A stretch of DNA of 64,000 bases, from the NCBI RefSeq assembly GCF_011764425.1, contig NZ_BLPF01000001.1, forward strand, positions 4,579,001 to 4,643,000, written 5' to 3'. The notes under the pieces were generated by a model, which was given only the letters and a program-made list of their open reading frames with translations, was not told the DNA's origin and did not search any database. Of the stretch, positions 35,602 through 63,311 are shown piece after piece. This DNA is from Phytohabitans houttuyneae. Its GTDB lineage: Bacteria; Actinomycetota; Actinomycetes; Mycobacteriales; Micromonosporaceae. The translations under genes were made by a program, and so were the position numbers. Every line of letters starts with the position of its first letter. The first letter of the stretch is position 1.

Positions 35602-35665
35602 CCGAGCGGGCCATGGTGCCCGGCGGGTGGGACGCGCCGGGAGCGCTGGCCTAGGCTTGCCGCTC

Positions 35666-35745
35666 ATGAGCGAGCGGAGCGAGCGAATCGTCGAACTCAG
35701 CGTGGATGGAGCCTCGTGCCCGCCCGCAGCGAATCGAGGACGGGT

Positions 35746-35749
<4 letters not shown>
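35666..35749 (+). CDS. 27-codon leader ORF coupled to class I fumarase (element copy 1)
   Basis: Begins [11 protein letters not shown], ends [10 protein letters not shown]; its TGA overlaps the fumarase ATG as ATGA. TAGGCT (35652-35657) lies 8 bases before its ATG, so a leaderless transcript starting at or near this ORF is likely. Two other genes in the window (44622 minus strand, 62136 plus strand) carry homologous ORFs in the same position. No Shine-Dalgarno. Function unknown: a coupled leader peptide, or a mobile or duplicated element that brings its own start. Confidence 0.5.
35667..35684 (+). repeat. GAGCGAGC-type 18-mer, copy on plus strand
   Basis: TGAGCGAGCGGAGCGAGC at the head of leader-ORF element copy 1. 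The minus-strand copy at 44684-44701 differs at one base (TGAGCGAGCGCAGCGAGC). Confidence 0.7.
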
Positions 35750-37422
<1,673 letters not shown>

Positions 37423-43971: not shown

Positions 43972-44622
43972 TCAGCTGAGCGCCTGCGCCACTGCCGTCG
44001 CCGCCTCGATCACCCGCGGGCCGACCACCTCCGGGTCGAGCGGTCCCAGCGCGACCACGCCGACGCTCGCCTCCAGCCCTTCCAGGCCCAGCACGGGCGC
44101 CGCCACGCCGTAGGCCCCGGGCTGCAGCTCGCCGGTCGTGGTGACCGCGCTCTGGTCACCCTGCCGTCCGGCGAGGATGGCTCGGCCGGCCGCGCCCCGG
44201 TCGAGCGGGTGGCGGGACCCCGTGCGGTACGCCACGTGGAACGCGGTCCAACTCGGCTCCACCACCGCCAGCGCGACAGCCTCACCGCCCTCGGCGACCG
44301 TCAGGTGTGCGGTCGCGCCCACGGCCTCGGCGAGCCGCCGCAGCGGAGGTCGCGCGGCATCGGCCAGCAGCGGCTGGGCGCGGTTGGCCAGGTGCAGGAG
44401 GCCGGCGCCGAGCCGCAGCCGCCCGCGCCCGTCGCGCCGCACCATCCCGTGCTCCACCAGCGCGCCGACCAGCCGGTACACGACCGCGCGGCCCACGTCG
44501 AGCCGGGTCGCCGCCTCGGTCACACTCATCCCGCCTGGGGCGTCCGCGATGAGGAAGAGCAGGCGCAGCCCACGGTCGAGGGTCTGGGCGGTCTCCGGCG
44601 GCCGGCCACTTCCTTCGCTCAC
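43972..44622 (-). CDS. IclR-family transcriptional regulator
   Basis: 216 residues: N-terminal winged helix (TLDRGLRLLFLIADAPGGMSVTEAATRLDVGRAVVYRLVGALVEHGMV) and a C-terminal effector-binding domain (LTVAEGGEAVALAVVEP ... GAAGRAILAG ... LEASVGVVALG), slightly shorter than the usual 240-260 residues. Effector unknown. Its GTG start overlaps the stop of leader-ORF copy 3. Divergent from cysS. Confidence 0.88.
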   Translation of the reverse strand: MSEGSGRPPETAQTLDRGLRLLFLIADAPGGMSVTEAATRLDVGRAVVYRLVGALVEHGMVRRDGRGRLRLGAGLLHLANRAQPLLADAARPPLRRLAEAVGATAHLTVAEGGEAVALAVVEPSWTAFHVAYRTGSRHPLDRGAAGRAILAGRQGDQSAVTTTGELQPGAYGVAAPVLGLEGLEASVGVVALGPLDPEVVGPRVIEAATAVAQALS

Positions 44623-44702
44623 GGCAGTGCCCGCTTCGCCGCTGCCGGCCGCGCGGCTCCAAGCCCGCTGTGCCCGATGGTTTGCTCGCTGCGCTCGCTC
44701 AC
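44619..44702 (-). CDS. 27-codon leader ORF coupled to the IclR gene (element copy 3)
   Basis: On the minus strand, GTG-AGC-GAG start reading MSERSEQTIGHSGLG and ending PAAAKRALP; its TGA overlaps the IclR GTG as GTGA. TAGGCT (44709-44714, minus strand) is exactly 6 bases before its GTG, the leaderless signature. It aligns codon for codon, without gaps, with the fumarase leader ORF (35666-35749). Confidence 0.5.
   Translation of the reverse strand: MSERSEQTIGHSGLGAARPAAAKRALP
44684..44701 (-). repeat. GAGCGAGC-type 18-mer, copy on minus strand
   Basis: Minus-strand TGAGCGAGCGCAGCGAGC, one mismatch from 35667-35684, at the head of leader-ORF element copy 3. Confidence 0.7.
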
Positions 44703-60602: not shown

Positions 60603-62068
60603 GGCTGGGCCTTGGGACCCTCCGGCAGGTACCCGTGGAGAGCCGCCCCCGCGTGCGGCCCGGCACCGTGCCCGCGGGGATCGTCCACCTCGGACTCGGC
60701 GCGTTCCACCGGGCGCACCAGGCGGTGTTCACCGAGGCGGCGGTCGCGGAGGCCGGCGGCGACTGGGGCATCGTCGGCGTGGCGCCGCGCAGCACCGAGG
60801 TCTTCGACCGCCTCACCGAGCAGGACAACCTCTTCAGCGTCACCTCGCTGTCCAACGACGAGGCGCGCACTCACGTGATCGGCGCCCTCGCCGGCGTCCG
60901 CCACGCGGCCAGCGATCCGATGGCCGTGGTCGCGCTGCTCGCCGACCCGGCGATCCGGGTGGTGACGCTGACGGTCACCGAGAAGGCGTACCAGATGGAT
61001 CCCGCGACCGGCCGGTTGCGACCGGATCCGGCCGTGGCGGCCGACCTCGTGGGCGACGGCCCGCCGGCGACCGTGCCCGGCCTGCTGGTGCGGGGCCTGA
61101 TCGCGCGGGCCCGTGCCGGCGCCGGCCCGATCGCGCTGGCCAGCTGCGACAACCTGCCGTCCAACGGAAAGCGCCTGCGCGGCCTCGTTACGCAGGCCCT
61201 CGAGTACGGCGGCACCGAGGACGCGCTCGTCGAGTGGGTGCGCGAAAACGTCACATTCCCCGGCACGATGGTCGACCGCATCGTCCCGGCCACCACGGCC
61301 GAGACGCTGGCCACCGCCGAACGGGTCCTGCACGTCTCCGACCGCGCCGCGGTGGCCGCCGAGCCGTACCAGCAGTGGGTCATCGAGGACGACTTCCCGG
61401 CCGGCCGCCCGGCCTGGGAACGGGCCGGCGCGGTGCTCACCGGCGACGCCAGCCCGTGGGAGCGGCTCAAGCTGCGCTCGCTCAACGGCGTGCACTCCGC
61501 CATCGCGTACCTGGGTGCGCTCGCCGGGCGCGAGACGATCTCGGAAGCGCTGGAGATCCCCGGCATGTCCGCGATGCTGCGCCGCTTCGTGGCCGAGGAC
61601 GTGGCCGGCAGCTTCAGCCCGCCGGACGGCGTATCGGTCGTCGAGTACGGTGACTCGGTGCTGGAGCGCTTCGCGAACGCGGCCATCCGCCACCGGACCA
61701 TCCAGGTGGCGATGGACGGCTCGCAGAAGCTGCCGCAGCGCGTGCTGCACACGATCGCCGACCGCCGCGCGACCGGCGCCGCGCCCAGGTGGGGCACGCT
61801 CGTGCTGGCCGCCTGGATGCGCTTCGTGCAGGGTGAGAGCGACGCGGGCCAGCCGCTGCCGCTCGACGACCCGCTCGCCGAGCGGATCCGTACCGCGCTG
61901 GCCGAAGGCAAGCCCACCCCGGAGGGCGTGGTCGACGCGCTCTTCGGCCTCAGCGAGGTGTTTCCCGACGAGCTTGCCGCCGACGGCGTCGTGCGCGAGC
62001 TTGTCGCCGGCTGGCTGAGCGCACTGGAGCGGCACGGGGTGGAGCCGGTACTACTGGAGCTGCGATGA
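60593..62068 (+). CDS. Mannitol dehydrogenase family reductase (fructuronate/tagaturonate reductase type)
   Basis: 491 residues: N-terminal Rossmann domain VPAGIVHLGLGAFHRAHQAVFT, TLTVTEKAYQMD, LASCDNLPSNGKRL, and the C-terminal helical domain with KLRSLNGVHSAIAYLGALAG and DGSQKLPQRVL, containing the catalytic Lys-x5-Asn-x2-His. By context it reduces D-fructuronate to D-mannonate (or tagaturonate to altronate). GGAGGGG 6-7 bases before ATG 60593; a second ATG at 60599 overlaps the preceding stop. Confidence 0.88.
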   Translation: MAMRLGLGTLRQVPVESRPRVRPGTVPAGIVHLGLGAFHRAHQAVFTEAAVAEAGGDWGIVGVAPRSTEVFDRLTEQDNLFSVTSLSNDEARTHVIGALAGVRHAASDPMAVVALLADPAIRVVTLTVTEKAYQMDPATGRLRPDPAVAADLVGDGPPATVPGLLVRGLIARARAGAGPIALASCDNLPSNGKRLRGLVTQALEYGGTEDALVEWVRENVTFPGTMVDRIVPATTAETLATAERVLHVSDRAAVAAEPYQQWVIEDDFPAGRPAWERAGAVLTGDASPWERLKLRSLNGVHSAIAYLGALAGRETISEALEIPGMSAMLRRFVAEDVAGSFSPPDGVSVVEYGDSVLERFANAAIRHRTIQVAMDGSQKLPQRVLHTIADRRATGAAPRWGTLVLAAWMRFVQGESDAGQPLPLDDPLAERIRTALAEGKPTPEGVVDALFGLSEVFPDELAADGVVRELVAGWLSALERHGVEPVLLELR

Positions 62069-62139
62069 GCCAGCGATTCATCGGGCGCGGTCCCATTCGA
62101 GCCGCACGGCCGCCCGCGGCGATGCGAGGGCGGCCATGA
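62065..62139 (+). CDS. 24-codon leader ORF bridging two catabolic genes (element copy 2)
   Basis: Reads MSQRFIGRGPIRAARPP and ends AAMRGRP. Its ATG overlaps the stop of the upstream reductase and its TGA overlaps the ATG of the downstream dehydrogenase, both as ATGA. It aligns with the leader ORFs at 35666 and 44702 after an in-frame gap of three codons; the last 30 bases are very like copy 1 (CCGCCCGC-GCGA-CGAGG-CGG). Confidence 0.5.
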   Translation: MSQRFIGRGPIRAARPPAAMRGRP

Positions 62140-63311
62140 GCGCTGCGGCACGGGTGGCCCTGATCGGGGCGAACGGGCACGGCGGGTGGCACCGGCGGCA
62201 GATCGCCGCGCTCCAGGCGACCGGCGTGGTCGAGCTGGCGGCCCTCGTCGACGTACGCGAGATCGAGCCCGGACCGGACGCGGCACCGCACTTCACCGAC
62301 CACCGCGAGATGCTCCGCGCGGTGGCGCCCGACGCGGTCGTGATCTGCACCCCGCCGCACACCCACCTCCCGATCGCCACGGACGTACTCCGCGCGGGCG
62401 CGGACGTCCTGCTGGAAAAGCCGCCGGTCCTCTCGGTCGCCGAGCACCGCGCGCTCTCCGAGGTGCTCCGCGAGACCGGCCGGGCCTGCCAGATCGGGTT
62501 TCAGGCGCTCGGCTCGGCGGCCCTGCGGGAGCTGCAGCGCTCCATCTCGTACGGCGTGATCGGCTCGGTGATCGGCGTCTCGACCGTCGGCGCCTGGCAG
62601 CGGGACGACGGCTACTACCGGCGCTCGCCGTGGGCCGGAAAGCGCACGGTGGACGGCCGGCCGTCGCTCGATGGCGCGCTCGCCAACCCGCTCGCACACG
62701 CGTGGATGCAGTGTCTGGCCATTGTGGACGGTGATCCGCCGGTCGGTGTCGAGCTGGAGCGCTACCGCTGCCGCGACATCGAGGTGGACGACACCTCCTG
62801 CCTGCGCATCACGCTCGCCTCCGGGCGCCCCCTCGTCGTCGCGGTGACCCTGTGCGGCGAGGAGAAGATACAAGGCGAGGTCATCGTGCACGGCACTGCC
62901 GGCCGCGCCATTCTCGAGTACCCGACCGACCGGCTGCGGCTTCCGGGAGACGCCGACTTCCGTGAGATCCCCGGCCGCGTCAACCTTCTGGAAAACCTCA
63001 TACAGCACCGGGCGGACGGCACTTCGCTGATCGCGCCGCTGGCGCGCACGGCGCCGTTCACGGCGGTGCTCGACGTGCTCAACTCCGCTCCCGTGCCGGC
63101 ATTCCTCGGCGGTGACGTGGTCGTCGAGGAAGGCGAGTCGCCGGCACGTACAGTCACGATCAAGGGCGTCAACGCGGCGCTCCGGCAGGCGGCGGAGAAG
63201 CTGGCGCTGCTGTCGGAGCTGCCGGTGCCGTGGGCGGTGGGCCCGCATCGCGTGCGCATCACGGCAACTGCGGAAAACACACTGCAAACCACGGAGGAAA
63301 CCGTCCGGTAA
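62136..63311 (+). CDS. Gfo/Idh/MocA-family oxidoreductase
   Basis: 391 residues. N-terminal RVALIGANGHGGWHRRQIAALQ (nucleotide loop), VVICTPPHTHLPIATDVLRAGADVLLEKPPVLS with the EKP motif, FQALGSAALREL, and a C-terminal sheet domain. It is distinct from the first dehydrogenase of the operon. The substrate is unknown, likely a sugar acid or glycoside. ATG overlaps the leader ORF stop. Confidence 0.85.
   Translation: MSAAARVALIGANGHGGWHRRQIAALQATGVVELAALVDVREIEPGPDAAPHFTDHREMLRAVAPDAVVICTPPHTHLPIATDVLRAGADVLLEKPPVLSVAEHRALSEVLRETGRACQIGFQALGSAALRELQRSISYGVIGSVIGVSTVGAWQRDDGYYRRSPWAGKRTVDGRPSLDGALANPLAHAWMQCLAIVDGDPPVGVELERYRCRDIEVDDTSCLRITLASGRPLVVAVTLCGEEKIQGEVIVHGTAGRAILEYPTDRLRLPGDADFREIPGRVNLLENLIQHRADGTSLIAPLARTAPFTAVLDVLNSAPVPAFLGGDVVVEEGESPARTVTIKGVNAALRQAAEKLALLSELPVPWAVGPHRVRITATAENTLQTTEETVR

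Follow-up and report, generated by a model that had tools for sequence, protein, structure and literature searches.

A 64,000-nucleotide stretch of the Phytohabitans houttuyneae genome (contig NZ_BLPF01000001.1, positions 4,579,001 to 4,643,000 of the forward strand; hereafter the window) contains three short leader open reading frames (ORFs), located before genes for a class I fumarase, an IclR-type regulator and a Gfo/Idh/MocA oxidoreductase, which we identify as copies of one interspersed element. With a probability of roughly one half, this is a self-guided element in which a 6-nt guide carried by each copy finds translation starts and the start codon is replaced, moved by machinery other than a known Y1 transposase. 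The broader statement, that the element is non-autonomous, mobile and of the same kind as the mycobacterial interspersed repetitive units (MIRUs) reportedly described by Supply et al. in 1997, and that it probably picks its target by self-encoded base pairing, we consider rather likely. What is new here is the covariation between the old gene start and bases internal to the element.

In the mechanism we propose, the target is the hexamer RTGA[G/C]N at a gene start; the element enters directly 3' of it, leaves it unduplicated and turns the old start into the start of a leader ORF of 24-27 codons. Its right end supplies a Shine-Dalgarno-like GAGG and an RTGAG of its own, which takes the place of the gene's start and overlaps the leader stop by 4 nt, so that ribosomes ending the leader could restart on the gene. 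The left hexamer would fold onto element bases 18-23 around a GNA-loop mini-hairpin through the proposed pairs R1-Y23, T2-A22, G3.A21, A4.G20, G5-C19 and C6-G18, and this pairing would probably select the target in the manner of the guide/target pairing of IS608.

The earlier note, made from the letters of the window, had described the three ORFs as homologous, 27, 27 and 24 codons long, with RTG-AGC starts and TGA/RTG overlaps, and as a possibly mobile or duplicating element; these details are as claimed, and both the family and its spread are confirmed. The recurrence far exceeds chance: the left-end 18-mer TGAGCGAGCGNAGCGAGC has 22 exact matches in the whole genome (G000, 11.34 Mb), against 0 for the reversed control. 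At all 22 left ends an ORF opens with RTGAGC and closes with a TGA overlapping an RTG, its length being 84 nt in 19 cases and 75, 72 and 204 nt in the others. A covariance model finds 48 matches at E<=0.01 and 57 at E<=1 in this genome, including tandem arrays with a period of 80, and 48, 21, 84, 4, 1 and 11 matches at E<=0.01 in the six Phytohabitans genomes G000 to G005, so that copy number within a single genus ranges from 84 (G002) to 1 (G004). Comparison of orthologous loci with and without the element yields empty sites at 21 loci, revealing precise insertion at a gene start, usually of 80 bp. These are the fumarase and MocA loci together with L002, L020, L016, L018, L074, L355, L375, L383, L046, L048, L042, L352, L063, L067, L369, L395, L372, L378 and L381 (a tandem copy, L076, was dropped from one ortholog query). 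G000, G001 and G002 carry the fumarase element, and in G003, G004, G005 and eight other genera the site is unoccupied; in G005 it reads ctggcctaggcttgccgctcATGAGT, and G000 has the same flank followed by the element. From these sequence comparisons we infer mobility, including mobility in trans.

The empty sites also identify the origin of the two starts. We aligned 102 distinct Phytohabitans copies, taken from 100 chosen loci at E<=1e-6 and fitted to the covariance model, a set that omits the weaker G000 matches and some loci of odd length. The left/right start bases of these copies are A/A in 66, G/G in 15, A/G in 12, G/A in 7 and other in 2. At ten A/G loci (L352, L063, L067, L369, L395, L372, L378, L381, L048 and L355) the empty orthologs carry A in 34 of 35 cases, the sole exception being L497 at L352, and at three G/A loci (L020, L002 and L016) they carry G in 5 of 9 (Fisher p=0.0006 between the two groups; start bases were tallied by eye from alignments, some of them gapped, and fumarase empty sites were excluded). 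Empty orthologs match the left base, which identifies the left start as the one that the gene had before insertion. The right RTGAG, with a G85 that does not vary in 102/102 copies, is therefore element-borne and replaces the gene's own start. At L369, for instance, the empty site reads ATGAGC-TCCGTT and the filled one GTGAGC-TCCGTT; in clear cases the gene's codons resume directly after the right start. Insertion thus takes place 3' of a target retained in the left flank, with no target duplication and a cut after base 4, 5 or 6. One insertion, L308 (G002:C23), is apparently the same as L002 and L307 and has another upstream flank, with ATG/T23 instead of GTG/C23; its left half was perhaps swapped as a unit by gene conversion.

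A model alignment of 20 copies, consisting of the 22 left ends minus L003 (a tandem), L016 and L022 and with the MocA copy added, was folded with RNAalifold, which found two hairpins without guidance. The left hairpin comprises pairs 1-23, 2-22, 5-19, 6-18, 9-15 and 10-14, interrupted by two nearly invariant tandem G.A mismatches (3-4 with 20-21 and 7-8 with 16-17) that are GA/GA in 98/102 and 83/102 copies, most other instances of the second being gaps. It closes on a GNA loop whose middle base is free (A 21, C 27, T 16, G 24); d(GCGNAGC) mini-hairpins are very stable DNA structures. The right hairpin pairs 48-57 with 76-85 and holds the new start RTGAG against CTCRY.

Among the 102 copies, pair 1-23 is AU in 77, GC in 21, GU in 2, CG in 1 and AC in 1, hence Watson-Crick in 99, and pair 5-19 is GC in 96 and CG in 4, with one other and one gap. 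In the right hairpin, pair 52-81 is UA in 70, CG in 24 and other in 8, and pair 54-79 is GC in 49, CG in 41 and other in 12. In this alignment, whose fitting to the model itself favours pairing, paired cells reach 98.0%, against 93.2% in shuffles, and double-change cells number 100, against 33.0 (standard deviation 3.6), with 0 of 500 shuffles reaching either value; cell counts for the first 20 copies also lie beyond all shuffles. The same relation holds in 130 distinct copies from 120 named actinobacterial stretches, collected with a left-end pattern that left R1 and Y23 free: AT 75, GC 46, AC 6 and GT 3, a match in 121/130 (p=8e-25). Where left and right start bases differ, in 19 of the 130, Y23 fits the left base in 16. 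Of 104 copies from other actinobacteria, 42 have CTCRY, and in 38 of these 42 its final base agrees with the right start. Position 5 behaves likewise: at four unrelated loci the left hexamer of the copy is ATGACC or ATGACT and the right one RTGAGC, and all four copies carry G19, with A18 opposite the T6 of L074. The empty orthologs of these C5 copies read ATGACC in 8 of 12 cases; among those of G5 copies, C5 occurs in 17 of 54. Since base 1 and C5 match positions 23 and 19, the element seems to carry the complement of the hexamer it entered, and by analogy with guided insertion sequences the pairing of guide bases with the start hexamer probably selects the target.

Several observations weigh against this reading. 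When the first 20 copies are shuffled, 54 of 500 shuffles contain at least as many doubly changed pairs. Neither the whole fumarase copy (z +0.59 as RNA, +1.66 as DNA) nor the left hairpin folds better than shuffles, and by standard energies the left hairpin on its own is weak. G.U pairs outnumber A.C (39, outside pair 51-82, against 9), a hint that pairing takes place in RNA and not in DNA, and CTCRY is missing at the right end of 62/104 copies from other actinobacteria. The target evidence at position 5 is modest (8/12 versus 17/54, p=0.045, a hand count that excludes the fumarase sites), and every one of the four C5 loci has one empty ortholog with ATGAGC, as at the right end. L020 and L002 have GTGAGC on the left where two relatives and one relative, respectively, have GTGACG, and L352 has ATGAGC whereas both its empty sites have C5, so that left positions 5-6 may be partly element-borne. 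Related copies were counted as if independent, although they are not independent events. Chromosomal orientation is weakly biased, no Y1 transposase (PF01797) occurs in any of the six Phytohabitans genomes, and compensation after insertion could likewise produce covariation.

This last point underlies the alternative to which we give most weight, which we nevertheless judge unlikely. Insertion and coupling would be the same, the target would simply be RTGA with no choice by a guide, and pairing would reflect a structural need restored afterwards. Structure alone can indeed drive covariation, because right-hairpin pairs 52-81 and 54-79 covary though both of their sides are element-borne, and the left hexamer is sometimes unlike the empty sites at positions 5-6. 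Yet base 1 is target-derived and fits position 23 in 99 of 102 copies; the three G19 copies of a single genome (G002) all lie at ATGACC, and the G5 copies carry C19 in 96 of 96 cases.

A second alternative invokes a Y1 transposase of IS200/IS605 or REP type working on single-stranded DNA. IS608 inserts exactly 3' of TTAC, which is kept in the left flank, and its guide can be altered to retarget it; IS200/IS605 elements recognise their cleavage sites through base pairing with guides that lie inside the element close to hairpins (PMC5934647). The two systems follow closely parallel logic: our element resembles IS608 in inserting precisely 3' of a short target left in the flank without duplication, in having a hairpin at each end, and in end sites complementary to guide-like internal bases. 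Covariation at 1-23, 5-19 and 52-81 agrees with pairing between such putative guides and cleavage sites. The element differs in lacking a transposase gene, in measuring only 80 bp and in supplying a start codon from its right end; moreover, its left guide (18-23) lies 3' of the mini-hairpin, not 5', its right one (48-52) lying 5'. REP sequences are short, interspersed, hairpin-containing repeats with a motif that resembles a guide (PMC8266576), features that the element shares; it lacks their fixed GTAG, which appears only where the free loop base is T, and it sits at gene starts with an ORF running across it.

IS200/IS605 elements show a lagging-strand orientation bias. In a hand-entered sample comprising G000 contig C1 only, with tandems collapsed, and the matches listed for two other genomes (18 of 21 and 8 of 11), co-directional copies number 22/29, 10/18 and 6/8, a weak bias (p=0.0065 against 0.5 and 0.22 against 0.6). 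The element occurs in 54 of 82 genomes with Y1_Tnp and in 149 of 218 without (p=0.68; copy counts per genome in such wide surveys are lower bounds, with at most 14 or 11 candidates scored). Given the absence of PF01797 from the six genomes and its lack of association with the element in 300, we reject the Y1 transposase as mobiliser, and the scenario as a whole appears improbable. IS110 elements are said to recognise their target through an element-encoded sequence, the bridge RNA; the likeness is by analogy only, and no recombinase or bridge RNA was found, neither having been searched for.

Lower still do we rate RNA-mediated spread, in which the transcribed element would pair with target DNA or be copied by reverse transcription. 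The tolerance of G.U above A.C speaks for it, and strong copies, being at gene starts, would lie within transcripts; against it, DNA also tolerates G.T, and no enzyme has been identified, none having been searched for. Insertion with duplication of the gene start, as the earlier note proposed, can be set aside almost entirely: similar RTGAGC sequences do stand at both ends of most copies, but the two start bases differ in 19/102 (A/G 12, G/A 7), the A/G empty sites match the left base, and the RTGAGC repeats at the two ends do not represent a duplicated target, since the element itself brings the right start. Identity of the element start with the gene start accordingly holds for the three window copies and fails as a rule. 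The note's suggestion that the element supplies a leaderless start is not supported either, since in leaderless cases both the promoter and the left ATG belong to the gene and only the second start comes from the element; coupling to the next gene stands as far as the architecture goes (-4 overlap, Shine-Dalgarno-like GAGG), and the statement that no named element is like this one gives way to the mycobacterial MIRUs, which are of the same kind (PMC12548453). That these are ordinary leader-peptide genes, arisen in place and sensing something, is scarcely credible despite short ORFs preceding metabolic and regulatory genes, given the unrelated downstream genes in the window, the empty sites, the tandem copies and equal variability over codon positions with no sign of a conserved peptide.

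The leader obeys the frame rule. Among the 130 copies, 106 have an ORF of <=99 nt and a readable end, and in 104 of these the leader stop overlaps RTGA; a Shine-Dalgarno-like 4-mer precedes the right start in 97/106 and the left start in 64/106. As RNA, the right hairpin closing the new start has energies of -20.6 to -27.1 kcal/mol in the five stretches folded, so that a ribosome would probably have to come from the leader to initiate on the gene. We infer translational coupling of leader to gene from this architecture. The leader peptide shows no conservation, codon positions 1, 2 and 3 varying equally (0.103, 0.099 and 0.113 over 19 copies). By eye, several copies with longer ORFs have a start-to-start distance of 0 mod 3, with the leader fused in frame to the gene; in L140, L143, L194, L203 and L223, from named actinobacteria, it forms an N-terminal extension (MSERSE...). 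The 22 of 130 copies with an ORF >99 nt are by eye fusions, truncations or tandems, none clearly a long element. A longer, autonomous version is likewise absent among the 22 left ends of G000, each of which is followed by a coupled RTGA at a distance of no more than 204 nt. The 204-nt leader belongs to the tandem L003 (G000:C1:712017 region), in which the internal stop/start has been lost, giving one longer in-frame leader; the tandem L205 has likewise become a single leader.

For 38 G000 matches at E<=3.6e-7, -4 overlap coupling is found in 32 and a downstream ORF of >=90 codons in 33. Four of the remaining five lie within tandem arrays; the fifth, the strong copy L035/L019 (G000:C3:1394166), precedes an ORF that ends after 45 codons, the gene being perhaps broken or very short. 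A TANNNT box ends 5-9 nt before the left start in 6 of the 38, and in 0 shifted windows; these six, including the fumarase and IclR copies, look leaderless. The 120 stretches that hold the 130 copies carry at least 23 genus names, counted from titles and all in Actinomycetota, including Micromonospora, Nocardia, Nonomuraea, Microbispora, Streptomyces, Nocardioides and Mycobacterium. A phylum-wide covariance search at E<=1e-4 found the element in 3/396 genomes, with a model fitted to one subfamily and strict filters; the case for occurrence beyond the family therefore comes from the left-end pattern. Plasmids and phages gave no match to one copy with short flanks, searched with the low-complexity filter on.

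MIRUs are described as short, apparently mobile mycobacterial repeats inserted at start codons, with an ORF coupled at -4 spacing (PMC12548453). The element shares with them a short interspersed unit (80 bp here) that also occurs in tandem (here with period 80), a small ORF overlapping the next gene by 4 nt (22/22 in G000, 104/106 elsewhere) and insertion at start/stop DTGA sites, here with empty sites at 21 loci. In a genus that we took to be Mycobacterium, 23 of 148 genomes contain a MIRU motif, with copies in tandem arrays; the twelve MIRU loci read have in common a GAGCGTAGCGA core, with GGAG preceding the right DTGA. By eye, a common core GAGCGNAGCGA and GGAG are all that the two have in common; the rest of the sequence is unlike, and MIRUs show no left hairpin with an AAY guide. 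MIRU units measure 53 bp in three arrays (L346, L347 and L350), with other periods of 46 and 50-53, and because these periods occur the 2-mod-3 rule is not kept in all MIRU arrays. A common origin of element and MIRU is possible. Searches of the open-access PMC literature showed no prior description outside mycobacteria, and to our knowledge how MIRUs move has not been worked out.

In the window, the class I fumarase gene (35746..37422, plus strand; PF05681, PF05683) now starts from an element-borne ATGAGC. The original start, the left hexamer ATGAGC at 35666..35671 (positioned from empty sites), now opens the 27-codon leader ORF (35666..35749), whose stop overlaps the next ATG; at this locus its identity as the old start rests on other loci, not on fumarase itself. 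A TAGGCT at 35652..35657, 8 nt before the ATG and resembling a -10 box of an old leaderless promoter, is also found at empty fumarase sites of relatives, such as L100 and L102. The inserted element, delimited by comparison of genomes with and without it, spans 35672..35751 (80 bp) and includes the guide-like bases GCGAAT at positions 18-23 (35683..35688), complementary to the left hexamer with covariation at 1-23 and 5-19, the right hairpin with the new start ATGAG (35713..35750, pairs 48-57 with 76-85), and the Shine-Dalgarno-like GAGGA (35736..35740), similar to the 4-mer in 97/106 copies elsewhere, all on the plus strand. On the minus strand, the 27-codon leader ORF at 44619..44702 (inserted element about 44617-44696) precedes the IclR-type regulator (43972..44622; PF09339, PF01614 in a scan from one codon upstream of the start). 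This locus has no empty site among the relatives; G001, G002 and G005 carry shortened remnants (window 44617-44702; L304, L305 and L311), apparently left by deletion between the element's own AGCGA repeats. The third leader, of 24 codons (62065..62139, plus strand; inserted element about 62071-62141, 71 bp), precedes the Gfo/Idh/MocA oxidoreductase gene (62136..63311, plus strand; PF01408); its left ATGA doubles as the end of the upstream reading frame, and G001, G002 and G005 have empty sites.

Our results describe a relative in kind of the MIRUs for which empty sites, target/guide covariation and an element-borne start are at hand, making MIRU movement testable. Gene starts are rewritten by the element, from ATG to GTG and, at ATGACC loci, from Met-Thr to Met-Ser, and annotation is affected as well, for an old gene start may be that of the leader. 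If pairing selects the target, the element would constitute a naturally occurring insertion system that is directed to start codons by a short guide, and in which a change of T23 to C23 would retarget it from ATGAGC to GTGAGC starts and a change of C19 to G19 would direct it to ATGACC.
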